A stretch of DNA of 64,000 bases. It comes from Verrucomicrobiia bacterium. GTDB lineage: Bacteria > Verrucomicrobiota > Verrucomicrobiia > Verrucomicrobiales > DEV007. Position 1 is the stretch's first letter. Every line of letters begins with the position of its first letter. The DNA lies in the NCBI GenBank assembly GCA_030425385.1, contig JAUIAH010000011.1, forward strand, positions 1 through 64,000. Direction: 5' to 3'. Below the pieces are notes generated by a model. That model was given only the letters and a program-made list of their open reading frames with translations. It did not search any database and was not told the DNA's origin. Shown piece by piece: positions 5,387 to 44,428 of this stretch. The translations under genes were made by a program, and so were the position numbers.

Positions 5387-5476
5387 CCCTGTCATGGCCC
5401 GACTGCAGAAACTCTAGATAATCGTTAAGACCTGTGCGCGCGCGAGTTATCTCCTGATGACACCTCACATTATACG

Positions 5477-25924: not shown

Positions 25925-27331
25925 CTACGCGATGATGTCGTGGACAATCTCCCCGTAGACATCAGTGAGGCGGAAATCTCTGCCCGCATGCCGGAAAGTC
26001 AGCTGGGTGTGATCGATGCCTAACAAGTGCAACATGGTGGCATGGAGATCATGGAAGTGGACGCGATTCTCCACAGCGTAGTAGCCGAAGGGATCCGTGT
26101 GCCCATACTGGATACCCGGCTTCACGCCACCACCAGCGAGAAACATGGTGAATCCGTGAGGATTATGATCACGGCCATCGCGGCCCTGGGCCACCGGCGT
26201 ACGGCCAAACTCACCTCCCCAGAGAACCAGCGTTTCTTCTAACAAACCGCGCTGTTTGAGATCCGTGATGAGAGCAGCGACGGGCCGATCCATTTCCGCG
26301 CTCAACCGGGTGTGGTCGCCCTTCAAATTGCTATGCTGATCCCAATACCCATGGGTCACCTGGACGAACCGCACACCAGCCTCTGAGAAGCGCCGCGCAA
26401 GCAGACACTGTTTGGCGAATGCGCCGGTCACCTTGTCATCAAGCCCGTAGAGCGCCCGTGTGGCCGGTGTCTCCTGAGAGAGATCTTGCACTGAAGGAGC
26501 CTCCGATTGCATGCGGAAGGCAAGCTCATAGGAAGCAAGGCGCGCCTCAAGAGCCGCGTCTGCGCCAGCCCGTTGGAGATGATCGCGATTCATTGCCTCT
26601 AACAATGCCAGTTCTCGTCTTTGCGCATCCGGTTGGGTATCGGCATGAGTGATGAATGGTATCTTCCATTGCTTGTCCTTGTCCCGTGCGATGCGAGTAC
26701 CCTGGTAGTGAGCGGGCAAGAATGAAGACGACCAGGCATTGGCACCACCATGCCCGAGGCTGGGATTGATCGTGAGAAATCCTGGCAGATTCTCATTCTG
26801 CGTCCCCAGGCCATACTGGATCCATGAGCCCATGGCGGGTCTCGGAAAGGTGTCCGAACCCGTATGCAACTCTAACAACGCCCCACCGTGACGAGAATTG
26901 GATCCATGAATGGAGCGGATGATGCAGAGATCATCCACAACCTTGGCAATGTGGGGCAGCAATTCACTGACCTGCGCCCCACTCTGACCGTGATGCTGGA
27001 AAGCGAACGGCGAGGCTAACAAATTCCCCGTCTGGCTGCTCACGATTCGTGGCTTATCGAATGGCAAGGGTTTGCCATCGTGGCGGCGAAGCTCTGGTTT
27101 CTCATCGAAGAGATCCACCTGCGAAGGCCCTCCGTGCATGAAGAGAAAGATGACTCGCTTGGCCTTTGGTGCGAAAGACGCTTGCCGCGCCCGCAAGGGG
27201 TTGGCGGCTTGAGCCTCAAGTGAAAGCAACCCATGAGCCGCCAGCGCCCCAAACCCCGCAGACGACTGCTGGAGAAAGGCACGCCGGCTTTGAGGTGCGG
27301 CTTGACGATGGAGACAGAGTCGTGAAGGCAT
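25925..27331 (-). CDS. DUF1501 protein with Tat signal (PSD1 partner)
   Basis: 468 residues. The N-terminus carries a twin-arginine export motif 'SRRAFLQQ' followed by an Ala/Gly-rich hydrophobic stretch. The DUF1501 core shows alkaline-phosphatase-superfamily-like features: 'FLFMHGGPSQVDLFDEKP' near 60, 'HGYWDQHSN', 'LVLWGGEFGRTP' and 'DHNPHGFTMFLAGGGVK'. It lies 3 bases after the stop of the upstream PSD1/cytochrome gene, and such pairs are a well-known planctomycete and verrucomicrobial arrangement; their biochemical role is not established. Convergent with the TamA-like gene, with 30 bases between the stops. Confidence 0.9.
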   Translation of the reverse strand: MPSRLCLHRQAAPQSRRAFLQQSSAGFGALAAHGLLSLEAQAANPLRARQASFAPKAKRVIFLFMHGGPSQVDLFDEKPELRRHDGKPLPFDKPRIVSSQTGNLLASPFAFQHHGQSGAQVSELLPHIAKVVDDLCIIRSIHGSNSRHGGALLELHTGSDTFPRPAMGSWIQYGLGTQNENLPGFLTINPSLGHGGANAWSSSFLPAHYQGTRIARDKDKQWKIPFITHADTQPDAQRRELALLEAMNRDHLQRAGADAALEARLASYELAFRMQSEAPSVQDLSQETPATRALYGLDDKVTGAFAKQCLLARRFSEAGVRFVQVTHGYWDQHSNLKGDHTRLSAEMDRPVAALITDLKQRGLLEETLVLWGGEFGRTPVAQGRDGRDHNPHGFTMFLAGGGVKPGIQYGHTDPFGYYAVENRVHFHDLHATMLHLLGIDHTQLTFRHAGRDFRLTDVYGEIVHDIIA

Positions 27332-27334
27332 GAG

Positions 27335-29620
27335 TCAGTCGAGGTATAGGAAAGCATTCGATGCCAGCAAGACTCGGCACAAAGCGGTCCAGGCTTCGCC
27401 TGCCTCGGGGTGCGATGCGATAAAGGCGAGAGCGCGCTCCCTTTCCGTGGCGTGTGGTTTGCGAAACAAAGCCTTCTGATAGAGAGCCGCGAGCTTCTTC
27501 TCCGCCACAGTGTCAGGGAGAGAAGCAGCGAGCGCGAGCGCGGCATCGTGCACGCGCTGGCTATTCATGAGATACAGGGCCTGGGGGGCTACGACAGACT
27601 CTCTCCGATTTCCCTCAGGTGCCGATGGATCCGCCATGTCAAAGGCGACAAAGGCATCATAGAGGGCGCTCCGAACGATTGGCATGTAGACGGCTCGTCT
27701 CGGGATGTCCAGATACTGATTGAGCCGATTCCGATTCACGTAGGTTCCTGGCTGATCGAGGAGCAGCTGGCCACCCATGCGAAGGTCTAACCGATCTCCC
27801 AATCCTAACAAGGCATCGCGCAGACTCTCTGCGTCCAGTCGACGCCTCACATGATGATTGGGAATCACCGTGGCCAGGTCCGCGTTGGGATCTTCCCCAG
27901 AAGCATCGGAAGCCAAGTGGTAGCGTGATGACGTGGTGATCAGGCGCTGAAGACGTTTCACCGACCAATCCCCTCGCGTCAATTCATGGGCGAGATGATC
28001 GAGCAACGAGCGATGACGCGGCGCGCTTCCAAGCATTCCAAAGTTATCTGTCGAAGGAACGATTCCTTGACCAAAGTGCCAGCGCCACAGGCGATTCACC
28101 CACACCCGAGCGGTCAAAGGGTTGCTCTCACTCGCAATCCACTGAGCCAACTGCAAGCGCCCACTCTGATCCTCCGGCGCCGCCTGCTGGGTAGCCGTGT
28201 CGCGATGAAAGACCATCGGCACCTGGCGCACGGTTTCCTCACCCAAAGTCTGATAACTTCCTCGCAAATGCACACGTGCATTCTCCGTAGGATTCTCGGT
28301 GATCCCCATGACCTTCATAAGTGGCGGGGTCGTGGCCTCCAGCTTCGCGAGTGCGTCTTTCGCCTTCGCACGCGCCTCATCTGAGGCTTTCTTGTCAGTC
28401 GATTGCTTACGCAAGCGTTCCATTTCGGCATGGGCCTCCTGCACGTCCGGCGGCGAGAAATCGTATTCATGCCACTTGGCGACCACCCGGTAGTTCACCA
28501 TCGTCTTGGTGGACATGAACATGCCTGCCAGGCCGTAGTAATCTTTGGCAGAAATCGGATCAAATTTGTGATCATGACAGCGCGCACATCCGAAGGTCAT
28601 GCCAAGGAAAGCGCGTCCTGTCGTATCGATCTGTTCATCGACGATATCCATACGCATCTTCTGCGGATCATCGCAGGCCAACATCTTGGGACCAATCGCC
28701 AGGAACCCCGTGGCCACTTTCTCGTGCATGTGTGAGTCCTCTAACAAATCTCCCGCCAACTGCTCGACGACAAAGGCATCATAGGGTTTGTCCGCATTGA
28801 ATGCCGCAATCACATAGTCGCGATAGCGATAGGCCTCCGCGTAGGTCATGTTCTCGTCCATGCCATTGGAATCCGCATAGCGTGCCACATCCAACCAATG
28901 CCGTCCCCATCGCTCGCCATAGCGCGGCGATGCTAAGAGCCGATCGACCAAGCGTTCCCTCGCATCGGGGCGATCCCAATCGACTCCTTCCAAGCCGAGA
29001 AGTGACGGCGGCAAGCCCACCAACGCATCACTGAGCCGTCGCACGAGGACCTCCATATCGACGGCACGCGCAGGCCCCACGCCACGCCCTTGCCAATGAT
29101 CTAACAGAAACGCATCCATGGGTGTGCGCGCCCAACCATCGGCCGATGGAGGGACATCAGGGTCTTCGGGTGATTGCAAAGACCAGAAGGCCCGCCCCGC
29201 CTCGTAATCGATTCCCGCAGACGACGCCTCTCTGAGATCCTCGACAGACGCCTCGCGCGGATCAAACGCGCCGTTCACGATCCAGCGCTCTAACACCACC
29301 ACCTCATGATCGGACAGTTTCTCTTTGGGAGGCATCTGCAACTCCGGATCCGCATAGCGCACCGCTCGCACTAACAAACTTGCTTCCACATCCCCTTTGA
29401 CGAGAGCGGGCCCAGAATCTCCACCATGTTCCCAACCCTGGCGTATGTCCAGGCGCAGGCCGCCCTTGATCTTCTGTCCCTCTCCCACCCCGTGGCATTC
29501 ATAACACTTGCTCGCGAGCAATGGGCGGACCTCTTTCTCAAAGAAAGCCGCACGGGGATCCTCACCGCTCAGGCCACGAACAGCGAGCAAGAGGAGGATA
29601 ATTGCAGATCGGACGCCCAT
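27335..29620 (-). CDS. PSD1 and planctomycete cytochrome C domain protein (DUF1549/DUF1553)
   Basis: 761 residues from the ATG at 29620, which places a clean signal peptide ('MGVRSAIILLLLAVRGLSG') at the N-terminus. A GTG at 29716 would overlap the upstream stop by 4 bases but adds an unlikely 32-residue leader. Domains in order: planctomycete cytochrome-C domain with 'CYECHG' near residue 40, DUF1549 (PSCyt2) including 'RYGERWGRHWLDVARYADSNG' features near 230 and a second heme-like 'CARCHDHKFDPI' near 345, then DUF1553 (PSD1) with 'NPLTARVWVNRLW...FG.G' and 'LYLMNS'. Known family context is a secreted heme-containing partner of DUF1501; function undetermined. Confidence 0.92.
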   Translation of the reverse strand: MGVRSAIILLLLAVRGLSGEDPRAAFFEKEVRPLLASKCYECHGVGEGQKIKGGLRLDIRQGWEHGGDSGPALVKGDVEASLLVRAVRYADPELQMPPKEKLSDHEVVVLERWIVNGAFDPREASVEDLREASSAGIDYEAGRAFWSLQSPEDPDVPPSADGWARTPMDAFLLDHWQGRGVGPARAVDMEVLVRRLSDALVGLPPSLLGLEGVDWDRPDARERLVDRLLASPRYGERWGRHWLDVARYADSNGMDENMTYAEAYRYRDYVIAAFNADKPYDAFVVEQLAGDLLEDSHMHEKVATGFLAIGPKMLACDDPQKMRMDIVDEQIDTTGRAFLGMTFGCARCHDHKFDPISAKDYYGLAGMFMSTKTMVNYRVVAKWHEYDFSPPDVQEAHAEMERLRKQSTDKKASDEARAKAKDALAKLEATTPPLMKVMGITENPTENARVHLRGSYQTLGEETVRQVPMVFHRDTATQQAAPEDQSGRLQLAQWIASESNPLTARVWVNRLWRWHFGQGIVPSTDNFGMLGSAPRHRSLLDHLAHELTRGDWSVKRLQRLITTSSRYHLASDASGEDPNADLATVIPNHHVRRRLDAESLRDALLGLGDRLDLRMGGQLLLDQPGTYVNRNRLNQYLDIPRRAVYMPIVRSALYDAFVAFDMADPSAPEGNRRESVVAPQALYLMNSQRVHDAALALAASLPDTVAEKKLAALYQKALFRKPHATERERALAFIASHPEAGEAWTALCRVLLASNAFLYLD

Positions 29621-29712
29621 GGTGACGCCGCAAGAAACCCCGTGAGGGATGGGACGTCGCAACCAGCGAGCTACCGAATAAAGTTCAAATGCTCCCCTCG
29701 ACCTTTCTGAGC

Positions 29713-31611
29713 TCACAGATCCATGCGAAAGAGCCGCTCCTCGCCTTTGGAGGCGTCGAGCTTGAGCCGGAGCCAGGGTTCCTGACAGAGATTCGCGGGC
29801 GGAGACTCCGTGCTGGTGATGATGTATTGGAAGTCTGCGAGACCATCATCCGAGGGTTCGAGCGCCTGCATGTGCGTGAAGAGACGGCGATAAAGATTCG
29901 CATCCATGTCAGCCTCGCGGGGGCTGTCATGTAGGAGAAACCTTGGGTGGTGTGCGTGGTTCTTGACGGCCGCCTTCAGCACCGTGAGATCAAATCCCAA
30001 GGTGGTGAGGGTATTGATGGCAGCGCTGTTCAAGTCGCCATTATAGGTGGCCTGAAGCCGAATGTTCTCGCGCGTGAATCGGCATTCGGCATCGGTTCCT
30101 CGCCCTAACAAGCTACGCATCGTTTGCCGATAAAGGGTGGCAAAGCGCGACGCTTCTTTGTCCCAACGCCGCTGCAAGGCTTCTTGGCGTTCTTGTGAGG
30201 CACTGATCTCCTGGGAGAGCCGTTCACGCATGTCGATGAGGGCATCGAGTGTGGATTGGGCGGCCACTGCCCGATCCAGGTGTTCGCGAATGGTGCGATA
30301 ACGGGTCCGAATGGTTTCCGCTTCGCGACGCTGTACTTCGTCTACATGCAAGGCCGTCCCATGGGCCTCTTCCATTTCCACCACCCGAGCCTCTGCCCGT
30401 TCGAGAAACTGTTGCGCTTCTAACAATCGGTTGCGCGTGACGAGTCCACCCTGTTTCGGAAGGGGTTCCGGGTCTTCCACATGGAAGGGACAATGGTGGT
30501 GGGCAAGTTGGGCATCCACCCCGCAAGGTCCAGACTCCCACATGGCGACCGCTTGCCTGGCCGCTCCAAGCGTCTCTAAAGCGCGATCGAGCGCAAGCCG
30601 TTGCTCTTCCAAAGTGAGCGTTCCTTCAGGGCGCAACTCATCTAACGCTTGTGCCTCACGCTCACGCAGGCGACGCTCAATCGCATCGGAGAAGAGAGGG
30701 TCGGCAAGGCTATCGTGCGCTTCATCGATGTAGGGCTTCAGCTCCTTGATAGCTTCCTCCACCGTGCGTTGACGAAAGAGAATCTCCGAGGGGAGCCGCT
30801 TGAGATCATCTTCCATCGAGGTGCGATATTCGATTTCTCGACGGATCTCCTGATCCATGACCCCGACGACAGAGCGGATGAGAAACCGACGATCCTCGGC
30901 ACTGAGAGGCGGACTAGCACTCTGGCTATCTTTGTGCCGCCACGAAAGCAATCCTCCCAGGCGACACTCTTGGTCTCGACTGAGCCAGGCTAACAGGTGT
31001 AGAAATCGGATCGATTGTCCGGACTCCCCGTAGCTCTTCACAGGCAAGCCATCAGTAACGGCCTGATGCAAGGTCACGCGAAAGACCTCGTAATCACTGG
31101 CCTTGGACGGGTCTTCCCGTAGCCAGGCATCCAGGTCATCTTTCTGATCGCAAATGGAGCGACGGCGTCCCGACAGCGGCCGGGCCACAAGCCATGGCTT
31201 GCCCTCGAGCCAGATACGGGCGACGACCCATCCCTTGGGGAAGCGTTCATGAAGACGTTCTCTCAAGAAGGCACTCCCCGGACGCGTCTCCCCGAGAAGA
31301 TAGCGGAGCAGGCGGCAGAAACTCGTCTTACCAGCCGCGTGACCACTGAAACGTTCATCGGGATCATCCTCGGCCAAGGGTGGCGCCCAAATGATATTGA
31401 GCCCCCGGCGCAAGGTGATGCGGCGTATCTCATACTTAGGCATGCGCGAAAGGCGCTGAAGCAAGCGCACCTCTTCGATCCAGAAGGTGGGTGGTCGATC
31501 CACTCCTTTCGATTCAGGCTTTGCCACCTTGTCAGGGTTTGGCGCTCCCTCGACCTCCTCGAGTGCTTCCTCATCGTCGAATAGTGCTAGTTGCGTAGGC
31601 CGGTTCCCCAT
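29713..31611 (-). CDS. SMC/RecN-like coiled-coil ATPase of unknown role (DUF2326-like architecture)
   Basis: 632 residues from the ATG at 31611. The open frame runs on to 31749, but the extra part has no domain signal and overlaps the neighbouring gene. 'SGHAAGKTSFCRLLRYLLGE' at about 89-108 looks like an ATP-binding loop one residue shorter than G-x4-GK[ST]. A long charged helical middle region follows (about 240-520) with a Cys/His cluster 'CGVD....HHHCPF' near 360-375 that could bind zinc at a coiled-coil apex. A C-terminal 'RFLLHDSPREADM' near 555-565 is Walker-B/D-loop-like. The head-coil-head layout is that of ABC-type SMC/RecF-class ATPases. The partners usual for such proteins are absent: neighbours are an alpha/beta hydrolase and the PSD1 gene. 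Role in DNA repair or defence is inference only. Confidence 0.65.
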   Translation of the reverse strand: MGNRPTQLALFDDEEALEEVEGAPNPDKVAKPESKGVDRPPTFWIEEVRLLQRLSRMPKYEIRRITLRRGLNIIWAPPLAEDDPDERFSGHAAGKTSFCRLLRYLLGETRPGSAFLRERLHERFPKGWVVARIWLEGKPWLVARPLSGRRRSICDQKDDLDAWLREDPSKASDYEVFRVTLHQAVTDGLPVKSYGESGQSIRFLHLLAWLSRDQECRLGGLLSWRHKDSQSASPPLSAEDRRFLIRSVVGVMDQEIRREIEYRTSMEDDLKRLPSEILFRQRTVEEAIKELKPYIDEAHDSLADPLFSDAIERRLREREAQALDELRPEGTLTLEEQRLALDRALETLGAARQAVAMWESGPCGVDAQLAHHHCPFHVEDPEPLPKQGGLVTRNRLLEAQQFLERAEARVVEMEEAHGTALHVDEVQRREAETIRTRYRTIREHLDRAVAAQSTLDALIDMRERLSQEISASQERQEALQRRWDKEASRFATLYRQTMRSLLGRGTDAECRFTRENIRLQATYNGDLNSAAINTLTTLGFDLTVLKAAVKNHAHHPRFLLHDSPREADMDANLYRRLFTHMQALEPSDDGLADFQYIITSTESPPANLCQEPWLRLKLDASKGEERLFRMDL

Positions 31612-32725: not shown

Positions 32726-34180
32726 TCACGGCAGGCTAGCAATCGCACGCACGCGGATGAACTTTTGAAAGGAAGCGTTAGGAACGCTCTCCTGCACAGT
32801 GATGAGATTTGGCGTGTTCGTGAGGATCGTCAATGGGGTCTCCGTCCAGGTTTTGAGATCATAAGAGATCTCGATGAGCGGAGAGATGCCCGCCACGGGT
32901 GCCGCTCGAGTCAATCGCCAGGTGAGTTTCCCATCTTCTTCCCAAGGCAATTCCAACGAGTCCGTCCCGGGGTCGAGCCAGTCCATTCCCAAAGCAGCCT
33001 CCACGAGCGTGGTGAGTCCATCGGCATCAGGGTCGTCGTCTTCGAATAGCGCTAGACCATCGAGCCATGCGGTGTCCGCTCCGTCGATGTTGACATCGTC
33101 CTTGCGATATCGCCACGCGATGACGTGCTCTCCTTCCGGGACAAAAGCTGCCCGCATCTCCCAATCAACCAAACCAGAAATGGCCAACGCTGCCCCATCG
33201 CCGTCGCGAGCGACCTCCCCATCAATGAGAAAGGCGAGGTCATCATGACTCTCTTCAGAATCCACCCGCCACCAGAAGGTGACAATGGCAGGCCCGGTGA
33301 CAGGCCGTTTGAGAACAGAGGCTTGACCGTGATCGATTGTTCCTGCTTGCAGGGCACTTCCACCCTCGTGACTAACGACTGTCTGACTACTCCACGGAGC
33401 GCTCCCTTCCCATTGCCACTGGCCAGGCGTACTTGCCAACCCATCCCCTAACGTTACCACTTCGATCGTGATAGTCTGCGGTTCGCTCGTGCCTTTGGCA
33501 TTGCTAGCCGTGATCGCCACAGAGTACGTGCCGGGGGCACTGGGAGTGCCCGAGAGGGCTCCTGTCGTGGAATCGAGTTGCAGCCAAGCGGGGGGCGATC
33601 CTACAAGTGCGAAGGTCGCTCCAGAAGCAGTCGACTCTGGCTGAATCTCAAACGGACGTCCCTCGTAGAGCCCGGCCTGCGCCGGATACCGCGGCGCAGG
33701 CACCGTGCGTGAAGCGAAGCGGATGCGATCGACCCACCCCCGATCCTCCCCTTCGCCTTCGCTCTCATCCTTCACGTAGGCCCACGTGAGCGTGTGCAGC
33801 CCTTCCGGGAGAACGATGATTTCTTCCATCCACCCTGTGTCTCCGCTGATCTCCCGCTGAACCGTGCCATTGAGAGAGCATTGGAGGAAATCATAGTCCT
33901 CCTCCGAGGAGACACGCCACCAGAACGACAGCGTGTCTGGACCGCTCACAGCCACGGTGAACTGGGCGCTGGCCTCGTCAGGCAAGGGCGAGGAAACCGC
34001 CACGTCGACGCCATCATAGGCGCCAGACGCTTGGCTCGTCCACGCGGAGACTCCAGTCGTCTGGAGGTTCTGACCATCGAGATCGAGCGCCTCATCAAGG
34101 GAACTCGCCGCCTGACTTTCGTGAGCGATCGCGACGGCAACAGCGACCACCGCCATGGGAAAAAACAGGAAACCTTTCAT
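32726..34180 (-). CDS. secreted beta-sandwich protein with putative Ig-like domain
   Basis: 484 residues with a signal peptide (hydrophobic run ending 'ESQA'). Two lectin-like units share 'T.SFWWRVSSEEDYDFL.C..NG' (about 75-160) and 'TFWWRVDSEESHDDLAFLIDG' (about 290-385). Between them lies a putative Ig/cadherin-like He_PIG domain (about 165-245) with 'LDSTTGALSGTPSAPGTYSV'. The C-terminal part includes 'DDPDADGLTTLVEAALG' and the tail module 'IEISYDLKTW....FIRVR'. No catalytic motif is recognised; a binding role is inferred. Divergent from the PA14/DUF1800 gene across an AT-rich 125-base gap. Confidence 0.75.
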   Translation of the reverse strand: MKGFLFFPMAVVAVAVAIAHESQAASSLDEALDLDGQNLQTTGVSAWTSQASGAYDGVDVAVSSPLPDEASAQFTVAVSGPDTLSFWWRVSSEEDYDFLQCSLNGTVQREISGDTGWMEEIIVLPEGLHTLTWAYVKDESEGEGEDRGWVDRIRFASRTVPAPRYPAQAGLYEGRPFEIQPESTASGATFALVGSPPAWLQLDSTTGALSGTPSAPGTYSVAITASNAKGTSEPQTITIEVVTLGDGLASTPGQWQWEGSAPWSSQTVVSHEGGSALQAGTIDHGQASVLKRPVTGPAIVTFWWRVDSEESHDDLAFLIDGEVARDGDGAALAISGLVDWEMRAAFVPEGEHVIAWRYRKDDVNIDGADTAWLDGLALFEDDDPDADGLTTLVEAALGMDWLDPGTDSLELPWEEDGKLTWRLTRAAPVAGISPLIEISYDLKTWTETPLTILTNTPNLITVQESVPNASFQKFIRVRAIASLP

Positions 34181-34305: not shown

Positions 34306-37300
34306 ATGACGAAGACGATGCCCTGGAGCGGTCTGCTCACCACGTCGATTCTCACCCTCACCGTGCTCCTTTGCCCACTTGCCAAAGGGCAATCTGGGGT
34401 GCTGCGAGAGGTATGGACAAACGTTTCAGGGACGTCCATCAGCGCCCTGGACGCATTCGAGGCTTTCCCTCACCGCCCGGTCCTGGCTGAGGTCATTCCC
34501 ACCCTTCAGACCGAGACAGACTGGACAAACTACTACGGGCAGCGCCTACGCGCCCTGATCACGCCCACGGTGACTGGGAGCTACACCTTCGCCCTTTCGG
34601 GTGATGACAACGCCGAACTGCTCTTGAGCGCGACGGATTCCCGTCAAGACGCCAGGCGCATCGCTCGTGTCCCGGGATGGACCAGTCCCCTTGAATGGGA
34701 CAAGTTCGACGAGCAACGGTCGGAACCACAATCGCTCTTGGCAGGGCAATCCTATTACATCGAAGTGCTCCACAAAGAGCATTCCGGGGGCGACAATCTT
34801 GCCGTCGCGTGGAGTCTCAACGGTGGGGATTTAGAAATCATTCCTAACACCGTTCTACAGCCCGTGGGGAACCCACTCACCTTTCCTGCCTCTGGTCTGG
34901 CCGTGGAGGCTGGCGCCGACCAGGAAATCTTTCAACCGCGACTGTCGGCCACCCTTGCAGGTCAAGTGCTCGACCGGACGGGACAAAGTGGGAGCCCAAC
35001 GGCGATTTGGACCGTTACGGGCGGCTCTGGAGCGGTGATCGCAGCACCGGACCAGATGACTACCGAAGTCACCTTTCCAGGTCCCGGCACTTACACCTTC
35101 ACCCTCACGGTCATTAAGAAAGCCCTTTTGGAAACGGATACTGTAAAGGTCACTGTCCGTTCTCCACTCGATCCTAGCGCAGGCAAAGCGATCCAAGCGT
35201 TCTGGTTAGATGTTCGAGGGGAAGCCATTGAAGAACTCACCAGCCACCTCGACTTCCCCGCCTATCCTCACATGACCCGTGAAGTGGATGCTTTGGAGGG
35301 TCCTAGCGGTTTCGCCTCCTATTACGGCACGCGGACGACTGGGTATCTTCTCGCTCCCCACTCTGGCGACTATCGCTTCTACGTTTCGGGCGATGATACC
35401 GTTCAATTCTCACTGAGTCACAATGCTTCTCCCGAGAATGCCGTCGTCATTGCCACCGTGCCTCATCCCTCCGGTGCCGGCGACTTTCTCAGTAGCCCGG
35501 ACCATCAGATCTCCGCCCCTGTCACCCTCACAGAAGGCGAACGTTACTACTTTGAGCTGCTTCACAAGGAGAACTACAGTTCCGATCACCACGGGGTCTA
35601 CTGGGCCCGTGAAGGGGACCATTCCGTGCGTCTTATCACCGGTGAATTCCTCGCACCTACCACTTCGCTCGACTCCGAAGTCCCGGTGGCCGATCCCGAG
35701 AGTGACTACCTGGTCTCGGCAGGACGCGATCAGATTCTCTACTTACCGGACACCGCCACGGCGATGAATGGCTATGCGTCCAAGCGCCGATGGAATGCGG
35801 AACTGGTGAGTCAGACGTGGCGGGTGGTTGGGAACGCCTCTGGCATTGCCATCGCTGATCCCACCGATCCCGAAACGCTCGTTTCCTTTCCTGGCAAAGG
35901 CCTCTACACCCTTGAGTGGGAAGTCGTCACGGCCGATCAGACAGTGAGCGACCGCGTGCGGATCGACATCCGTGATGCTCTCGCTGAGAACACCGGCATG
36001 CTCACCCGAGAAGTGTGGTTTCACAAAAGCCTCGACTCCCTCGATGCGCTACGGGCCTTGCCAGAATATCCTGATGCGCCTCACATTGTCGACTCACTGC
36101 CTTCACTCAAAGGGCCGACCAATTGGAGCAGCCGCTATGGCACGCGAGTCACGGGATACCTGCAAGTGCCAGCAGACGGCGACTACACGTTCTACATCAC
36201 GGGAGATGACGAAGCGGAACTACGCATCAGTTCCAACGATCTCTCTAACAATCTCCGCTACGTCTGCAGCGTGCCAAACTACACGCGATCGGAGGCGTGG
36301 TTTGATCACCCGGAACAGCAATCAGACCCGTTCACTCTGAAGGCTGGGCAGCGCTACTTTGTGGAGTTGCTCCATCGGGAGACGTGGGGAAGCGATCACT
36401 TTCAAGTCGCTTGGACCGTGAATGATGATCGACGTCCCGTGCCTATCGAGGGAAGTTATTTCGCCCCCATCAAGCCGGCCCCAGCGTATCGCGAAGAGGT
36501 GAGCCACTATGCTTATGCGGGCGCTGATCGGGCCTATCATTGGCCGCATCAAGAGACGCATCTGTCAGGATCGATTCAACAAATCCGCGAGAGTGAGGCC
36601 ACCCTCTCCACCGAGTGGACGCAGATCAGTGGTCCCACTGCAGACCTTCAGAACGCCTCTGACCTCGACGCCTGGGTTGGGTTTCCCGGCATGGGGCGCT
36701 ACACCTTTCGTTTCACTGTCACCTCCTCGGACGGGATTCAGCATCAAGACGACATCGATATCGTTCTCCTGCCTCCGCTCACGGAAGACACGGGTACCCT
36801 CTTGCGTTCGGTGTGGTTAGACGTGGATGGCTACACGATCGACGATTTGGAAGCGGCGGATCCGGGGCTCTACTACCCAGACTTTGAAGACCTCCTCCCC
36901 GGGACGCAGACGCCAAACAACTGGGCACATTATTATGGTCAGCGGCTGGCAGGCTATCTCCATGTGCCGATCGCAGGCGACTACACTTTCTGGGTAGCGG
37001 CAAATGAGACCGCCCAGCTTTGGTTGAGCCCTAGCACCAATCCAGCTGAAGCTGAACAGATTTCTTTCGTCAATGCTAGTGTCAATCCTTTGCAATGGAC
37101 ACGTCGTGAAGGGCAGGAAAGCGCCCCCATTCGACTGGAGGCCGGACGTTACTACTTGGAGGCTCTCCACAAGGAGTATCACAGCAGTGATCACTTTGCG
37201 CTGGCGTGGTCCGGGCCCGCCACCAACGGGCGTGAACTCATCTCGCGGGGATTCCTCTCACCTCTCCGCGATGCTCCCGATCACAATCCTAACATTCAAG

Positions 37301-40300
37301 TGGTTCTCGGTCCCGATCGCGTCTTGCTCTGGCCTGACGACACCTTGCGCCTCACGGGACTTGTCTACGATCTAGAAGATGGTCCTGCAGCGCTTGAATA
37401 CACCTGGTCCCATGAAGCGCGAACACCGACGGCAAGTTTCACGGACCCTCACTATCCGGGCACGGATGTCCGCTTTCCTGGTCCTGGCATTTATATCATT
37501 TCTCTCGAAGCAAGCGATGGCGTCCATCAGGGCAAAGATTCTATCATCGTCACCGTGCAAGATCCCCTCGACGCATCCGCAGGAGGGCTTCTTCGCGAAG
37601 TCTACACAGACATTTCAGGCAGTCATGTCCCCAACCTCACGGAAGCCTCTGTTTTCCCTGACCATCCGACCTTCACTGACACCCTCACCAGTTTCGATAC
37701 TCCAGTCGACTGGGCCGACAACTATGGCACGCGCGTCCGCGGCTATCTACGCGTGCCCGAAACCGATGACTACACCTTCTTCATCGCGAGCGATGATCGC
37801 GCGGAGCTCTGGCTCAATGCCAACGGACCAGAACCAACGAGCAAGGAACGCATTGCGCACACCGAATGGGCAACGGGTCGGTATCGATGGAATCGCACAG
37901 ACTCTCAAGCATCAGCTTCCATCCGCTTGCGTGCAGGCGTTCGCTACTACATTGAGGCTCTTCAAAAGGAAGGCAGCGGCGGGGATTACCTCTCGGTTGG
38001 CTGGCGTCGGACGGACTCTGAGGAAGACATCCGCGTCATTCAAGGCCCCATGCTCGTGCCGTTCGCGTCCGCGGATGCCCATGATGAAGCCATCGCCATG
38101 GAGGCGGGTCCCAACCAGAGCGCGCGTTGGCCCATCGAATACGTCACGCTGCAAGGGCATGCCTACGACCTGACACCTGGCCCACTCACACTCACCACGT
38201 CGTGGACGCTTACGAAAGGTAACGAAGATGTGGAGATCGAGTCGCCCAACGCCCTCGAGACCAAGGTCCGCTTTCCTGGTCCTGGCAAATACACCCTTCA
38301 GCTCACCGCAACCGATGGGGACCACACCCGTCAGGATCGCTTGGTCGTGCGCATTCTCGAACCGCTTGCTCCCGATACTGGTTCGGTTCTCTGTGAGGTC
38401 TTTGAGAATCTGCCAGGCTATTGGGTCACGGACCTCACCAAGGCGGACACCTATCCCCATGCGCCCAGCGCCCGCACCCAGCTCAAGAGCCTTGAGATGC
38501 CGGCCAACACTGCCGATCAGTATGGTGCTCGCATCCGAGGCTACCTACATCCCGATCGCAGCGGTGTGCATCGGTTCAACATCGCGGGTGATGATTGGGC
38601 GGAATTCTATCTCAGCACCGATGCGACCGAAGCGAATAAGGAACTTGTCTGCTTCACACCAGCGGCCGTTTCTTACTACGAATGGCTTCGCTTTCCTGAC
38701 TACCAAGTATCACGCCCCATTGTTCTCAAGAAAGGTGAGAAGTACTATCTCGAAGCTCGACTCAAAGACCACGGCTCCCGCGATCACCTCGCCATCGCTT
38801 GGCACGCCCCGCGCACTGATCACTATGAAATAGTGCCAGGTGCCAATCTCTCGCCCATTCTCCCCGTCGGCGATACCATGGCGCCGTCGATCACCTTGCA
38901 AGGTGCCTCCGAAATCACGCTCACGGTGGATTCTGAATTTGTTGATCCTGGCATCATCGCCAATGATGAAACTGATGGCGATCTCACGGGCCAAGTCCTC
39001 GTAGATCATAACATTGATGTCTCCACACCAGGTGAGTATGCCGTGCGCTACCGCGTGCTGGACGCCGCTGGCAACGAATCGGAAGAGCACGTTCGACGCG
39101 TCACCGTGGTGCTCGCGGATACGCCTCCAGCCGTCTACGCACCTGATCGCAGCGGCACGCATTCCACCGATCCGTGGCCGGAACCGTCCCCGGACGCCAT
39201 CACGTCCATGGACGCCTCTCGCTTTCTCCAACAAGCCACTTTTGGAGCGACAGAAGGGAGCATCGCCGAAGTGCAGCGCCTCGGATACTCCAACTGGATC
39301 GATGCGCAATTGGCGATGCCGGCGAGCTTGCACCTTCCGGAAATGGATCGCTACGCACGTTTTCGCGGGGCACAGGGAGACACGACTTACGGCGTCAATC
39401 TCGAGCAACGTCCGGGCGAACTCCCCTTCGCCGAGATGCGCACGCATGATCGCCACTATGTGTGGTGGACACAGGCCATCAAAGCACCCGACCAGTTACG
39501 GCAGCGGATTGCCTTTGCGCTTTCCGAGATCCTTGTCATCTCAGACCGTGGCTCTGATCTCTCACGCTATCCTCGCGGCACGACTCACTACTACGATCTG
39601 TTGGTGAAACATGCCTTCGGCAATTATCGGCAGTTGCTAGAGGACATCAGTCTCAACCCCATGATGGGCATTTGGTTGACGCACGTTCGCAGTTCCAAGG
39701 AATCCCCGGATGAGAACTATCCACGGGAACTCATGCAGCTCTTCTCTATCGGGCTTGCCCAGCTCAACCAAGATGGCACGCTCAAACTCGGAAGTAACGG
39801 AAAAGCTCAGCCAACCTATGATCAGGATATCATTCTCGATCTTTCTCGCGCCCTCACTGGCTGGACCTTTGCCGGGTCGCAATCGTTCTACTCCACACCG
39901 AGCACCGGCGTGGACTCGATCGCACCGTTGATCGCATTTGAAGAGGAACACGATCGGGGTGCCAAGACGCTTCTCGGAGGCGAAGTGCTCCCAGCCGGGC
40001 AGACAGCGGAGCAAGACCTGCAAAGCGTGATCGACAATGTCTTTGCGCACCCGAATGTAGGTCCATTCATCTGCCGTCGCCTCATTCAGCGGCTGGTCAC
40101 CAGCAATCCGAGTCCAGCCTACCTCTTTCGCGTCGCCGGTGTCTTCAATGACAATGGCCACGGCGAGCGTGGCGATCTCGGCGCCGTGGTGAAGGCCATT
40201 CTGCTAGACCCCGAGGCCCGTGTACGCGATGACTCTGCAGGCGCGGGAAAACTGAAAGAGCCCATCATGCGTCTCGCGAGTCTCTTCCGGGCTTGCTACA

Positions 40301-40779
40301 GTGAACCCTCTAGCAATCCTCCAACGCTGGGGCGTTTCGTCCTCAATGACACCACTTCGCAATACGGACAAGCGCCCTTGAGTGCCGCAACCGTCTTCAA
40401 TTTCTTCGAGCCCGATTTCTCACCGGCCGGGCCGCTCGTCGACGCGGGACTTTACGGACCGGAGTTTCAGATCGTGACGGAAACCACCGCCGTCGACATG
40501 GCCAACCATCTCTATGATGGCATCCGCTACGGCTTCGCCGTGGATCGCAGCCAGGTTGACTACCTCCGACTCAATCTCGCCGCCATCATCGCCCGTGTGT
40601 CTAACAGCAACGCCTTGATTGACTACCTTGAGGTGCTGCTTATCGGCAGACCCTTGGCCTCCGCTTCTCGAGCAGAGCTTTCAAAGATTGTGAGTCAATA
40701 TCAGGATGACCCCGAAGCAGCTGCTGAGTCGATCCTTCAGACCATCGTCGCCATTCCAGAATTCGCAGTTCAGCGCTAA
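34306..40779 (+). CDS. giant secreted protein: six PA14 modules, PKD-like spacers, DUF5011 and DUF1800
   Basis: 2157 residues with a signal peptide ending near 'LAKGQS'. Six PA14 modules begin at about residues 29, 293, 563, 828, 1092 and 1358, each with 'GLLREVW.D..G....DL' and 'W...YG.R..GYL..P..GDYTF....DD.AEL'. The spacing is very regular at about 265-270 residues because a PKD-like domain ('FPGPG.YTF.LT..DG') separates them. A DUF5011-type Ig domain follows at about 1523-1605, then DUF1800 from about 1635 ('RFLQQATFGAT....', 'WWTQAI.APDQLRQRIAFALSEILVIS'). PA14 modules generally bind carbohydrates. DUF1800 is of unknown function and regularly precedes a DUF1501 gene, as here with a gap of 23 bases. 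Confidence 0.9.
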   Translation: MTKTMPWSGLLTTSILTLTVLLCPLAKGQSGVLREVWTNVSGTSISALDAFEAFPHRPVLAEVIPTLQTETDWTNYYGQRLRALITPTVTGSYTFALSGDDNAELLLSATDSRQDARRIARVPGWTSPLEWDKFDEQRSEPQSLLAGQSYYIEVLHKEHSGGDNLAVAWSLNGGDLEIIPNTVLQPVGNPLTFPASGLAVEAGADQEIFQPRLSATLAGQVLDRTGQSGSPTAIWTVTGGSGAVIAAPDQMTTEVTFPGPGTYTFTLTVIKKALLETDTVKVTVRSPLDPSAGKAIQAFWLDVRGEAIEELTSHLDFPAYPHMTREVDALEGPSGFASYYGTRTTGYLLAPHSGDYRFYVSGDDTVQFSLSHNASPENAVVIATVPHPSGAGDFLSSPDHQISAPVTLTEGERYYFELLHKENYSSDHHGVYWAREGDHSVRLITGEFLAPTTSLDSEVPVADPESDYLVSAGRDQILYLPDTATAMNGYASKRRWNAELVSQTWRVVGNASGIAIADPTDPETLVSFPGKGLYTLEWEVVTADQTVSDRVRIDIRDALAENTGMLTREVWFHKSLDSLDALRALPEYPDAPHIVDSLPSLKGPTNWSSRYGTRVTGYLQVPADGDYTFYITGDDEAELRISSNDLSNNLRYVCSVPNYTRSEAWFDHPEQQSDPFTLKAGQRYFVELLHRETWGSDHFQVAWTVNDDRRPVPIEGSYFAPIKPAPAYREEVSHYAYAGADRAYHWPHQETHLSGSIQQIRESEATLSTEWTQISGPTADLQNASDLDAWVGFPGMGRYTFRFTVTSSDGIQHQDDIDIVLLPPLTEDTGTLLRSVWLDVDGYTIDDLEAADPGLYYPDFEDLLPGTQTPNNWAHYYGQRLAGYLHVPIAGDYTFWVAANETAQLWLSPSTNPAEAEQISFVNASVNPLQWTRREGQESAPIRLEAGRYYLEALHKEYHSSDHFALAWSGPATNGRELISRGFLSPLRDAPDHNPNIQVVLGPDRVLLWPDDTLRLTGLVYDLEDGPAALEYTWSHEARTPTASFTDPHYPGTDVRFPGPGIYIISLEASDGVHQGKDSIIVTVQDPLDASAGGLLREVYTDISGSHVPNLTEASVFPDHPTFTDTLTSFDTPVDWADNYGTRVRGYLRVPETDDYTFFIASDDRAELWLNANGPEPTSKERIAHTEWATGRYRWNRTDSQASASIRLRAGVRYYIEALQKEGSGGDYLSVGWRRTDSEEDIRVIQGPMLVPFASADAHDEAIAMEAGPNQSARWPIEYVTLQGHAYDLTPGPLTLTTSWTLTKGNEDVEIESPNALETKVRFPGPGKYTLQLTATDGDHTRQDRLVVRILEPLAPDTGSVLCEVFENLPGYWVTDLTKADTYPHAPSARTQLKSLEMPANTADQYGARIRGYLHPDRSGVHRFNIAGDDWAEFYLSTDATEANKELVCFTPAAVSYYEWLRFPDYQVSRPIVLKKGEKYYLEARLKDHGSRDHLAIAWHAPRTDHYEIVPGANLSPILPVGDTMAPSITLQGASEITLTVDSEFVDPGIIANDETDGDLTGQVLVDHNIDVSTPGEYAVRYRVLDAAGNESEEHVRRVTVVLADTPPAVYAPDRSGTHSTDPWPEPSPDAITSMDASRFLQQATFGATEGSIAEVQRLGYSNWIDAQLAMPASLHLPEMDRYARFRGAQGDTTYGVNLEQRPGELPFAEMRTHDRHYVWWTQAIKAPDQLRQRIAFALSEILVISDRGSDLSRYPRGTTHYYDLLVKHAFGNYRQLLEDISLNPMMGIWLTHVRSSKESPDENYPRELMQLFSIGLAQLNQDGTLKLGSNGKAQPTYDQDIILDLSRALTGWTFAGSQSFYSTPSTGVDSIAPLIAFEEEHDRGAKTLLGGEVLPAGQTAEQDLQSVIDNVFAHPNVGPFICRRLIQRLVTSNPSPAYLFRVAGVFNDNGHGERGDLGAVVKAILLDPEARVRDDSAGAGKLKEPIMRLASLFRACYSEPSSNPPTLGRFVLNDTTSQYGQAPLSAATVFNFFEPDFSPAGPLVDAGLYGPEFQIVTETTAVDMANHLYDGIRYGFAVDRSQVDYLRLNLAAIIARVSNSNALIDYLEVLLIGRPLASASRAELSKIVSQYQDDPEAAAESILQTIVAIPEFAVQR

Positions 40780-40802
40780 GCCACCCCAACGTTTACTCGA
40801 TC

Positions 40803-42209
40803 ATGAGCACCACCCCCCATCTTGTCACCTCGCGACGGCGTTTCTTACGCCAATCAGCCTGCGCCGGGATCGGCGCAGGCTCTGTGAGCATGTTATCGAC
40901 CCTCATGGGCCTCCGTCAGCTGAATGCTGCCGCAGGCGATGACAGTGCCTCACAAGACTACAAAGCGCTGGTTTGTGTCTTTCTTTATGGAGGGAACGAT
41001 TCCGCCAATATGCTCATTCCCACGGCAGACGCCCCCTACGCGGACTACGCCGCAGGGAGAGGCCCTCTCACCCTTCCCCAGGATTCGATTCTTCAACTCA
41101 ATGCCGAGAATGACGACGGCCGCCAGCTAGGACTCCATCCGTCCATGACCGGGTTGGCCAATCTCAGCCGGGGAGGCAATGCTGCCCTCATCGCCAATGT
41201 CGGCACCCTCGTCGCTCCGACCACCCTAGAACAGTATCAGAATCGCACCTCCGAGATTCCGCCCAATCTCTTCTCACATAATGATCAACAAGTGCTCTGG
41301 CAAACGTTGGCTGACACGGAAAGCAACGCCTTTCAGCCCACGGGTTGGGGAGGACGCATGGCGGATCTTCTTCATGCAGCGCATAACGATGATTCGCTCT
41401 CGATGTTGATTTCGTTAGGCGGAACCAACTTCTTCCAGGTGGCCGATACGCTGCAGCCGGTGCGCCTTCCAGGCGGCGGCTTGCCAGCCTACAAACTGGG
41501 GCAAGGTTCCAAGGACGCTGACATCGCCCGCTACGCCGCTTTCCGCAAGATCCTTGATCGCGACTACGCGAACATGATGGAGAATGCTTTCTCCGATGTG
41601 TCCAATCATGCCATCGAGGACATTGACACCGTGAATGGAGCGATCGCGGAAACCAGTTCTTACGATGATACCATTCCAGACAATGGTCTCGGACGGCAAC
41701 TGCGCATCGTGGCCAAGCTGATCGAGGCACGGGAAGCTCTGGGCATGCGTCGACAGGTCTTCTTCTGCGCCACGGGTGGCTACGACACGCACGGCGAGCA
41801 GTTGGCACAGCACGCCGGTTTGTTAGGCGATCTCGACAGTGCAGTCACGGGATTTCAAGCAGCTCTCCAGTCTCTGGGCGCGGAGGACCAGGTGACGACC
41901 TTCACCGCCTCGGACTTTGGCCGCACCTTCGATTCAAATGGCCGCGGCTCCGACCACGGTTGGGGTGGTCACCACTTTGTCCTGGGCGGTGCCGTTCGCG
42001 GCAATCGCATCTATGGAACCTACCCAGACCTCAAGCTGACCGCTGGCAACCCGCTCGACACAGGACGCGGACGCTGGATTCCCACAACCTCCGTAGATCA
42101 ATACAGCGCCACGCTGGCAAAGTGGTTCGGCGTCAGCGATGTGAACATGCGCTCTATCTTTCCTAACATTGGCAATTTCGACACCGCTGACCTTGGCTTC
42201 ATGGCATGA
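40803..42209 (+). CDS. DUF1501 protein with Tat signal (DUF1800 partner)
   Basis: 468 residues. Twin-arginine motif 'SRRRFLRQSA' at about 10-19 and a hydrophobic stretch ending near 'LNAAAG'. The core starts 'ALVCVFLYGGNDSANMLIP' and includes 'FFCATGGYDTHGEQ', 'FTASDFGRTFDSNGRGSDHGWGGHHFVLGG' in pieces, and 'YGTYPDLKL'. It differs from the DUF1501 at 25925 in lacking the HGGPS form of the first motif. The stop overlaps the next start by 4 bases (ATGA), so it is translationally coupled to the pseudopilin-like gene. Probably co-exported or co-anchored with the DUF1800 protein; function unknown. Confidence 0.9.
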   Translation: MSTTPHLVTSRRRFLRQSACAGIGAGSVSMLSTLMGLRQLNAAAGDDSASQDYKALVCVFLYGGNDSANMLIPTADAPYADYAAGRGPLTLPQDSILQLNAENDDGRQLGLHPSMTGLANLSRGGNAALIANVGTLVAPTTLEQYQNRTSEIPPNLFSHNDQQVLWQTLADTESNAFQPTGWGGRMADLLHAAHNDDSLSMLISLGGTNFFQVADTLQPVRLPGGGLPAYKLGQGSKDADIARYAAFRKILDRDYANMMENAFSDVSNHAIEDIDTVNGAIAETSSYDDTIPDNGLGRQLRIVAKLIEAREALGMRRQVFFCATGGYDTHGEQLAQHAGLLGDLDSAVTGFQAALQSLGAEDQVTTFTASDFGRTFDSNGRGSDHGWGGHHFVLGGAVRGNRIYGTYPDLKLTAGNPLDTGRGRWIPTTSVDQYSATLAKWFGVSDVNMRSIFPNIGNFDTADLGFMA

Positions 42210-42793
42210 GTTGGAAGCTCATTCCCCCAACGCTTCTGCTCGTCCTCGGCATCGTCCTGCTCTGGCATGCTCAGGAAACGCTTGCTCCTCAAACCGTCGT
42301 GGCGCCTCGATCAACGGCGCCAACCGCAGCGGATTCTTCTCCCGCCTCTGATGCGACCGATGACCAATCAGTGCCGCGACCGGAAGGCACGCTTTCTGCG
42401 GAGGGTCCACCCCTGCCCCCCAGCATCCTTGATGATCTCAATAGTGCGAAGACCACGCCGGCAAACGACATGCGTTTGTTAGCCACACTATTTCATGATT
42501 ATGCAAGTGTGCTCAAGGGAATGCCTTTCGGCATGCATGAAGAAATTGTCTCGGCCCTACAGGGCGACAATCCGCGCGCGATCGCCTTCATTCCCCCGGG
42601 GCATCCCGCTGTGAACGCAGACGGAAAGATCATTGATCGATGGGGCGCGCCGTATTTCTTTCACGTCATTTCCAGCCGCGCTGTCGAAATCATTTCGGCA
42701 GGACCGGACGGTCAGCTCTTCACTCAGGATGACATCCGGGACGTGCCGCCACACGCCTCAGTAGAGCCTCTCGCCCTGGCACCCTCGGAGTGA
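42206..42793 (+). CDS. pseudopilin-like protein (type II secretion G-like C-terminus)
   Basis: 195 residues. The N-terminus 'MSWKLIPPTLLLVLGIVLLWHAQ' is a membrane anchor, but the cleavable GFTLIE pilin signal is absent. A Pro/Ala/Ser-rich linker follows. The C-terminal half resembles the globular domain of GspG-type pseudopilins: 'DGKIIDRWGAPYFFHV' near 135 and 'EIISAGPDGQLFTQDDI' near 160. The 4-base overlap with the DUF1501 gene makes this the third gene of a DUF1800-DUF1501 operon. Likely membrane-anchored outside the cytoplasm; role unknown. Confidence 0.8.
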   Translation: MSWKLIPPTLLLVLGIVLLWHAQETLAPQTVVAPRSTAPTAADSSPASDATDDQSVPRPEGTLSAEGPPLPPSILDDLNSAKTTPANDMRLLATLFHDYASVLKGMPFGMHEEIVSALQGDNPRAIAFIPPGHPAVNADGKIIDRWGAPYFFHVISSRAVEIISAGPDGQLFTQDDIRDVPPHASVEPLALAPSE

Positions 42794-42922: not shown

Positions 42923-44428
42923 ATGTGGAACCTCATTCGTTCATTCTCGTCCATCGCCGCGCTGGGATCACTTGCCTGCCTCAGCCTTGCAAAGGCACAA
43001 ACACCAGGTCAGCATCCTCCTTTGCCGCCCAATCTTCGTCCAAGCATTCCTGCATTTCCCGGAGCCTGGGGTGGCGGCATGTTCACCACTGGTGGTCGCG
43101 GTGGCCAAGTGCTGACCGTCACGAGTTTGGCTGACAGCGGTCCTGGCACCTTGCGCGAAGCCATCGAGACGAGCGGCCCGCGCATCATCGTCTTCCGAGT
43201 GGCAGGGACCATTCGATTGGAGAGCGATTTGGACATCACGCACCCTAGCATCACCATCGCGGGACAGTCCGCACCCGGCGATGGCATTTGCATTTCTCAT
43301 GGTTCGGTCAATATCAACACGCACAATGTGATCCTGCGACACTTGCGGGTTCGCCGCGGCAATCCCGAAGGGGGCCAAGGTTCCGACAACATTGGTGGCT
43401 ATCCAGAGGGACAGGTGATCGTGGATCACTGTTCGGTCAGTTGGGGCCGGGATGAGAACATTTCCCTCTATCGCTACACGGAGGTCCAGCCTGACGGTGA
43501 GCGCATGAAATTGCCAACCAAGAACGTGACGATCCAATGGGTCATTTCCAGCGAAGCGTTAGGGCCAGGGCATGAATTCGGCGGCACCTGGGGCGGCACC
43601 GATTCGACCTTTCACCACAATCTCTTTGCCTGTAATACTGGGCGCAATCCCTCCATCGGCATGTCCGGGGAGTTTGACTATCGCAATAATGTGATCTTCA
43701 ATTGGGCCCATCGCACGATGGATGGAGGGGACGAAACTTCCCTCGTGAACGTCATCAACAACTACTACAAGGCAGGGCCTGCCGTGAAGTCTAACATGCG
43801 CACCATCATGGCACGCATGGAAGAACGCGATCAGAATTCCCCCACAGGGCCGTTCAAACCCGGCGGGTGGTATCCCGAGACGCCCAAACGCCCCGGCAAG
43901 TGGTATGTCGCGGGCAACTACTTCTTCGATGAGCCCGAGGTCACGGCGGACAACTGGAAAGGCATCCGGGGCACCATGGCTCTCGCCCGCGTGAATACTC
44001 CCTTCGAGGCCTGGCCCGTGCTCCAGGAGACCGCTACAGAAGCCTATGCGTCCGTGATGGCACATGCAGGAGCCACCCTTCCCAAACGTGATTCCGTGGA
44101 TCAACGCATCATCGAGACTGTGCGGTCTGGCAAGACCATCAACGAACGCGGGATCATCAATCACCCCGATGAAGTCGGCGGCTTCCCCGAGCTAACATTC
44201 TCTCCAGGCGACCTTCCAGAAGATGCGGATAATGACGGGATGGCAGACTCATGGGAAGCTTCTCATGGCCTTGATGCCGAAGATTCTGCCGACGCCTCTG
44301 TAGACCCGGATAAGGACGGCTACACGAACATTGAGGAGTTTCTCAATGGCACTGATCCCACCAAGTTCATCGATTACCGCGACCTCAGCAACAACGTCGA
44401 TACGATCAGTCTCCCATCCGCGCCTTGA
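42923..44428 (+). CDS. secreted pectate-lyase-like polysaccharide lyase
   Basis: 501 residues with a signal peptide ending near 'SLAKAQ'. The body is a right-handed beta-helix of the pectate lyase superfamily: 'FPGAWGGGMFTTGGRGG' near 35, 'VTSLADSGPGTLREAI' near 63, 'ITIAGQSAPGDGICI', 'ILRHLRVRRG', then 'VIVDHCSVSWGRDEN' near 172 and 'YRNNVIFNW'. These match family PL1-type enzymes that cleave pectate by beta-elimination. A calcium-type 'DADNDGMADSWE' and 'DPDKDGYTNIEEFLNGTDP' region near 430-475 ends the protein. The substrate is inferred, not proven. The 3' end overlaps the convergent HEAT-like gene by 23 bases. Confidence 0.88.
   Translation: MWNLIRSFSSIAALGSLACLSLAKAQTPGQHPPLPPNLRPSIPAFPGAWGGGMFTTGGRGGQVLTVTSLADSGPGTLREAIETSGPRIIVFRVAGTIRLESDLDITHPSITIAGQSAPGDGICISHGSVNINTHNVILRHLRVRRGNPEGGQGSDNIGGYPEGQVIVDHCSVSWGRDENISLYRYTEVQPDGERMKLPTKNVTIQWVISSEALGPGHEFGGTWGGTDSTFHHNLFACNTGRNPSIGMSGEFDYRNNVIFNWAHRTMDGGDETSLVNVINNYYKAGPAVKSNMRTIMARMEERDQNSPTGPFKPGGWYPETPKRPGKWYVAGNYFFDEPEVTADNWKGIRGTMALARVNTPFEAWPVLQETATEAYASVMAHAGATLPKRDSVDQRIIETVRSGKTINERGIINHPDEVGGFPELTFSPGDLPEDADNDGMADSWEASHGLDAEDSADASVDPDKDGYTNIEEFLNGTDPTKFIDYRDLSNNVDTISLPSAP

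Follow-up and report, generated by a model that had tools for sequence, protein, structure and literature searches.

A conserved three-gene set of Verrucomicrobiota suggests an undescribed coupling of enzymes to type II secretion

What the DUF1800 and DUF1501 protein families do together, and why a third gene should accompany them in Verrucomicrobiota, is the question raised by a stretch of 64,000 nucleotides from a Verrucomicrobiia bacterium of the family DEV007 (positions 1 to 64,000 of contig JAUIAH010000011.1, assembly GCA_030425385.1), called here the window. At 34306-42793 it holds three open reading frames on the plus strand, arranged head to tail, the start of the third gene overlapping the stop of the DUF1501 gene by 4 bases (42206 against 42209). 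A sequence-only reading of this DNA had proposed a DUF1800-DUF1501-pseudopilin-like operon with six evenly spaced PA14/PKD modules and a third gene coupled by this overlap, and the reading frames and their coordinates, the Pfam matches and a module profile agree with it. The features are the following.

34306-40779, plus strand: DUF1800 protein, 2157 residues (Pfam match)
34510-38889, plus strand: six PA14 modules, starting at 34510, 35302, 36115, 36913, 37702 and 38500
38890-39108, plus strand: Bact_surface_Ig-like domain (residues 1529-1601, Pfam), after the sixth PA14 module
39220-40767, plus strand: C-terminal DUF1800 domain (Pfam; AlphaFold2 model)
40803-42209, plus strand: DUF1501 protein, 468 residues, with twin-arginine signal and a predicted alkaline phosphatase/sulfatase-type fold (Pfam, TIGR01409, model)
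42206-42793, plus strand: third protein, 195 residues, with N-terminal hydrophobic anchor, linker and GspG-like head
42449-42739, plus strand: GspG-like head of the third protein (residues 82-178, hhalign)
42701-42733, plus strand: calcium-loop-like motif of the third protein, G166, D168, D175 and D176 (alignment of 33 members)

We found that these genes form a conserved set in Verrucomicrobiota, which suggests an undescribed coupling between enzymes and the type II secretion system (T2SS). Our leading interpretation, held tentatively, is a cell-envelope enzyme system in which DUF1501 and a glycan-binding DUF1800 protein are served by an adaptor with a GspG head and thereby coupled to type II secretion. 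Both large families, and the fact that they pair, were already in the literature. A 2016 paper described the DUF1800-DUF1501 operon together with its Tat signal and a link to bacterial chitin synthase genes, and gave no function (PMC5122149); the families, their adjacency on one strand and the Tat-type DUF1501 are the same as in the window. DUF1501 was also listed among modules found preferentially in compartmentalised species of the Planctomycetes-Verrucomicrobia-Chlamydiae (PVC) group (PMC4960237), and a 2026 report on a verrucomicrobial isolate describes over-expression, on alginate, of a pulG-like pseudopilin that has 67 homologues (PMC13274419). A literature search of partial coverage, over titles and the beginnings of abstracts, returned nothing on the third gene or on a T2SS link.

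The third gene is kept with DUF1800 and DUF1501 in relatives; the sequence-only reading had named its absence from the side of DUF1501 in relatives as a refuting observation, and this was not borne out. Within the family, the third protein was matched in 47 of 74 genomes at E <=0.01, and 44 of the 53 strong copies (E <=1e-12) lie downstream of a DUF1800 gene and co-directional with it, with gaps of 1.4 to 3.7 kb; for this count 64 of 86 third-protein rows were used, the 22 weakest being dropped, and split DUF1800 rows were merged into 108 genes. Among the nine remaining copies, five (L140, L142, L143, L144 and L145; L, G and C numbers are our labels) have DUF1501 directly upstream, with the contig ending or DUF1800 partial, one (L135) stands at a contig end, one (L141) is rearranged and has the DUF1800-DUF1501 genes close by on the opposite strand, one (L146) has neither partner beside it, and one (L139) is a remnant. 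In the remnant locus (5058-5615, G050:C143), which belongs to a species of the same genus, all that is left is the C-terminal part of the third gene, beside a piece of the gene that lies upstream of the operon in the window (32726-34180); it looks as though a single block with DUF1800 and DUF1501 had disappeared.

Across 387 sampled genomes of the phylum, the third protein was matched in 60 at E <=1e-8, and 74 strong loci (rows with E <=1.4e-22, 22 weaker rows being dropped) were found in 45 genomes. Among the matches listed, 44 of these 45 genomes also carry DUF1800, against 59 DUF1800 genomes without a strong third gene (Fisher p=4.7e-28, relatedness ignored). Adjacency to a DUF1800 gene was seen for 39 of the 74 loci among the DUF1800 matches listed, and direct searching of the other 35, after fetching, revealed DUF1800 and DUF1501 upstream in 25, which brings the loci downstream of the pair to 64 of 74. 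When 47 named DUF1501 loci were inspected, the third gene was present in seven, titled Verrucomicrobia, Verrucomicrobiales, Spartobacteria, Akkermansiaceae or Akkermansia; it was absent from the fetched loci, DUF1800-DUF1501 pairs included, of Proteobacteria, Acidobacteriota, Planctomycetota and Bacteroidota, a part of these loci stopping shortly past DUF1501, and also from at least two verrucomicrobial loci, L083 and L089 (in the latter the contig ends there). The window's own genome has 52 DUF1501 matches; the third gene was seen with only two of them, each lying next to DUF1800; of its three third-protein matches, two follow these DUF1800-linked DUF1501 genes and one is solitary. In 34 of 41 loci, DUF1501 and the third gene are separated by -4 to +64 bases, and the other seven show longer overlaps, possibly overcalled starts. 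From this count, as from those of neighbours, PA14 Asp-Asp pairs and DUF1800 lengths below, L133 and L134 were left out as repeats of L052 and L050.

In Pfam, the third protein of the window reaches T2SSG only weakly (E=0.075, 13.5 bits, cut-off 21), and 14 of 33 aligned members match this family at E <=0.1; the alignment comprises 33 of 53 profile matches, from which duplicates, cut sequences and GspG were excluded. Against the true GspG of neighbouring T2SS clusters, the head of the third protein gave an hhalign probability of 93.4 (E=2.4e-7), and against the PDB the top four matches of the third-protein profile were GspG or type II secretion proteins, at modest E-values of 5.5e-4 to 0.017. 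The sole invariant columns are G120, N122, G166, D168, D175 and D176, and the last four, each present in 33 of 33 members, make a G-x-D-x6-D-D loop, which, on our reading of the alignments, would be the counterpart of the GspG calcium site. According to a review, T2SS function suffers badly when the aspartates that coordinate calcium there are replaced (PMC10574481). The third protein has a strongly hydrophobic stretch at its N-terminus (Kyte-Doolittle value above 1.6) in 32 of 33 members, followed by a variable linker, with no continuous pilin helix. A pattern search found the prepilin motif in none of the 33; among the 53 profile matches in the fetched loci it was present in three, all of them GspG of T2SS clusters. 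Thus, the third protein shares with GspG (PF08334) the head domain and the aspartates of a calcium-type loop, differs from it in lacking both the prepilin leader and the N-terminal pilin helix, and has instead an anchor of uncleaved type and a linker, its Pfam score staying under the cut-off. The earlier description of it as pseudopilin-like without a prepilin motif was well chosen. As no leader is present, the protein appears to be GspG-related and not itself a pseudopilin. A search of it against a plasmid collection gave no match.

Two further loci carry such proteins in other surroundings. A solitary protein of 145 residues with the same design of anchor and GspG head is encoded at L138 6909-7346 (G000:C28), with no DUF1501 or DUF1800 nearby. 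At L175 402-1058 (G307:C20) the third gene occurs with neither DUF1501 nor DUF1800 in the fetched stretch, and two proteins with leaders that look prepilin-like by eye are encoded 6-7 kb upstream on the same strand.

Two observations connect the set with type II secretion. Four genomes of the family, namely G006, G025 and G011 from one genus and G068 from a second, have gspE about 40 to 115 bases past the third gene on the same strand, and gspF after it. All four clusters also contain GspG, secretin, GspK and GspM, the evidence being Pfam matches in scanned members and, for the three clusters other than that of G006, tblastn with the G006 cluster as query; GspK is a Pfam match in all four. The second observation is co-occurrence. 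T2SSK is found in 69 of the 74 family genomes, so that a T2SS as such is near-universal in the family. The comparison concerns the subtype seen in the linked loci, whose GspL profile reaches at least 200 bits in 28 of 74 genomes. The strong third gene is present in 23 of these 28 genomes and in 9 of the 46 others (p=1.4e-7, relatedness ignored). Among genomes of at least 88% completeness the respective numbers are 21 of 24 and 7 of 22 (p=1.9e-4), and in the largest genus, at completeness of at least 84%, they are 12 of 15 and 2 of 10 (p=0.005). Outside the family, the nearest candidate among the listed GspE-type matches is in G263, where a gspE-type gene lies 5.5 kb past the third gene; we did not count this locus as linked, because unrelated-looking genes on both strands intervene, and its gspE-type cluster looks like a type IV pilus cluster.

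As to the presumed enzyme, the DUF1501 protein matches its Pfam family (PF07394) at E=1.2e-39 (137.1 bits, cut-off 27) and the twin-arginine signal TIGR01409 at 17.7 bits (cut-off 16.7), with R11 and R12 of the twin arginine invariant in 39 of 39 aligned relatives. Its AlphaFold2 model (pLDDT 83.9) is predicted to have the fold of the alkaline phosphatase/sulfatase superfamily. Foldseek retrieved choline and carrageenan sulfatases together with the phosphoethanolamine transferases EptA, EptC and MCR, the best E-value, 4.5e-6, being that of a choline sulfatase; VIA-align retrieved phosphodiesterases (NPP) and alkaline phosphatases, the highest score, Z=18.3, being that of a phosphodiesterase match covering 246 residues at 3.5 A and 10% identity. 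Since D66, H159, D328 and H330 are conserved in 39 of 39 relatives, and the D384-H385 pair in 37 of 39 (2 gaps), a putative metal site may be proposed, with which these aspartates and histidines are compatible. DUF1501 would thus share with the alkaline phosphatase/sulfatase/NPP superfamily the fold and conserved Asp/His residues including a D-H motif, and it differs in the identity of only about 10% and in that the nucleophile of the superfamily has no assigned counterpart in it. A sequence search of the PDB with the DUF1501 alignment gave a single match, at chance level.

DUF1501 also occurs with another partner. About 5 kb upstream of the operon, at 25925-29716 of the window, a second, canonical DUF1501 gene lies beside a gene for a PSCyt1-PSCyt2(DUF1549)-PSD1(DUF1553) protein, so that there, too, DUF1501 adjoins a large uncharacterised partner. 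Homology of DUF1800 to PSCyt2-PSD1 was considered and is not supported, as the profiles did not match (hhalign probability 0.6, with five sequences on the PSCyt2-PSD1 side). At L123 3983-14008 (G019:C95) a DUF1800-DUF1501-third-gene operon abuts another DUF1501 gene and a gene whose product falls into one cluster with the window's PSCyt2-PSD1 protein, so that the two kinds of DUF1501 pair adjoin each other there.

The DUF1800 protein begins with a hydrophobic N-terminus, which by eye we read as a Sec signal. It matches DUF1800 (PF08811) at E=8e-88 (295.8 bits, cut-off 26.1), PA14 (PF07691) at E=1.8e-50 (171 bits, cut-off 24, five stretches passing singly), a K319L-like PKD family at E=3.2e-45 (five stretches) and Bact_surface_Ig-like at E=6.6e-19. 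A PA14 profile iterated from the third module of the window's own protein placed six modules, beginning at residues 69, 333, 604, 870, 1133 and 1399, that is, at start-to-start spacings of 264, 271, 266, 263 and 266 residues. From such spacing repeated internal duplication had been deduced, which is acceptable as an old event and not as a recent one. The modules share 22-36% pairwise identity, TRF detected no tandem array of the module in the DNA, and in three relatives also having six modules, same-number modules were best matches in 18 of 18 cases; a recent expansion is ruled out by this orthology, and for all these reasons the array is old and retained. Module number varies in other relatives: a fourth has seven modules and a fifth, on a short contig, five, the order there being partly kept. 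In yeast adhesins, an Asp-Asp pair at a set PA14 position serves calcium-dependent sugar binding. Of 36 modules examined in six proteins, 26 have the pair at this position, as do 5 of the 6 modules in the window protein; the modules thus appear compatible with glycan binding.

The AlphaFold2 model of the C-terminal DUF1800 domain is confident (pLDDT 89.9, pTM 0.92), and Foldseek found no match to it in the PDB at E <=0.001. In a second structure comparison the best Z was 4.7, and phycobilisome linker chains held ranks 1, 4 and 7, their domains weakly resembling the C-terminal 100 residues (Z 4.1 to 4.7); with Z <=4.7 this likeness is too weak to call. A sequence search of the PDB with the DUF1800 alignment was also negative. 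Judged from its model, the domain has no clear PDB match, which does not imply a new fold. Among 38 aligned DUF1800 members no other Pfam family matches more than one. The median length of DUF1800 proteins is 1503 residues in loci with the third gene (n=35) and 753 residues in loci without it (n=48), the latter spanning several phyla.

On the basis of these data the following mechanism may be proposed. DUF1501 would fold in the cytoplasm and be exported by the Tat pathway, and would act, as a metal-dependent hydrolase or transferase of the alkaline phosphatase/sulfatase superfamily, on phospho- or sulfo-esters; here we infer the activity from a fold and a twin arginine recognised in silico. 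The DUF1800 protein, carrying glycan-binding-type PA14 modules, would be exported by Sec and serve as the surface-facing partner of DUF1501. The third protein would keep its anchor uncleaved and thereby remain tethered to the inner membrane, with the GspG-type head and the calcium-type loop facing the periplasm, and might act there as a pseudopilin-mimicking adaptor which recruits the enzyme pair to the T2SS or releases it there. Such a role is suggested by the homology of the head, the direct linkage in four genomes and the phyletic co-occurrence. The T2SS could then bring DUF1800 to the cell surface, and perhaps DUF1501 along with it. This system transports proteins already folded in the periplasm, and therefore suits a Tat-exported DUF1501. 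The likely purpose would be to bind and modify polysaccharide at the cell surface, which would amount to the surface machine for glycan handling envisaged in the sequence-only reading.

Several results weigh against this interpretation. Direct T2SS linkage is rare, being limited in the family to four loci, three of which belong to one genus and possibly represent one event; none was seen, on reading by eye, among the listed GspE-type matches of 44 genomes outside the family, and the window's own operon is not beside T2SS genes in its genome. The co-occurrence ignores phylogeny, and genome size and completeness confound it. Moreover, the 200-bit GspL line was picked after the scores were known; at a 300-bit line the third gene is found in 16 of 19 genomes against 16 of 55 (p=3.7e-5; p=0.01 at completeness >=88%). 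The T2SS subtype occurs without the third gene in five genomes, and in nine the third gene is present without the subtype. In the phylum sample, 9 of the 74 strong loci have neither partner in the fetched stretch (one is at a contig start), and one, which partly reads N, has DUF1501 only. Finally, the Foldseek TM-scores of the DUF1501 model are low, 0.3 to 0.5.

A possible, if rather unlikely, explanation is that the third protein serves a periplasmic DUF1501-DUF1800 pair as an anchor in the inner membrane or as a calcium-dependent chaperone, the GspG head having been borrowed as a stable binding domain with no working connection to the T2SS, and the four linked loci being kept by descent. Such a role would agree with the tight coupling to DUF1501 in 34 of the 41 loci, and with most loci not being seen beside T2SS genes. 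A hint at periplasmic folding or redox work comes from a protein cluster encoded near the operon in 13 loci (L097, L098, L100, L105, L108-L110, L112, L116, L118, L121, L129 and L141), since TPR and AhpC/TSA-type redoxin domains were found in the four members that were scanned. What speaks against the anchor or chaperone is that the conserved head corresponds to that of a secretion-pilus subunit and retains its loop, and that the family co-occurs with one T2SS subtype. One might also postulate a new branch of the T2SS, in which a leaderless GspG head, tethered to the inner membrane and acting as a dedicated adaptor, hands the Tat-exported DUF1501 and its giant, glycan-binding DUF1800 partner to one Verrucomicrobiota T2SS subtype; we regard so specific a scheme as doubtful.

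It is unlikely, in our opinion, that the operon builds or tailors the cell's own exported polysaccharide instead of acting on an external one, with DUF1501 transferring or removing phospho- or sulfo-groups and DUF1800 holding the chain. The DUF1800-DUF1501 pairs of Proteobacteria do accompany chitin synthase and sugar epimerase genes, according to the 2016 paper (PMC5122149), and the matches of the DUF1501 model to EptA, EptC and MCR fit a transferase of this kind. A weak argument against the tailoring hypothesis comes from the gene neighbourhood, as the recurrent neighbours identified (redoxin/TPR, TIGR02597 and T2SS) are not glycosyltransferases, only some of the clusters being annotated. 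The TIGR02597 assignment concerns a second cluster, found one or two genes past the third gene at L097 12963-13988 and in eight other loci, of which five members were scanned. Very improbable is the view that the third protein, on account of its homology to GspG, is a true if divergent pseudopilin, which undergoes processing at a site that escapes recognition and becomes part of the pseudopilus, as none of the 33 members has the prepilin motif, a variable linker replaces the continuous pilin helix, and the four linked T2SS clusters possess a GspG of their own.

How the T2SS selects its substrates is a long-standing open question. If the adaptor model is true, cargo selection becomes testable in a defined set of three genes, in which the adaptor is encoded with its presumed cargo. 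DUF1800 and DUF1501, two common uncharacterised families, would gain a place (from periplasm to surface), a partner and a likely chemistry, that of the alkaline phosphatase superfamily, in a group of bacteria known to break down polysaccharides.

The gene that follows the operon in the window, on the same strand at 42923-44428, is of a PelZ-type, pectate-lyase-like kind (NCBIfam NF041900, E=1.5e-42, with a score well under the cut-off). It belongs to no neighbour cluster of at least three loci.

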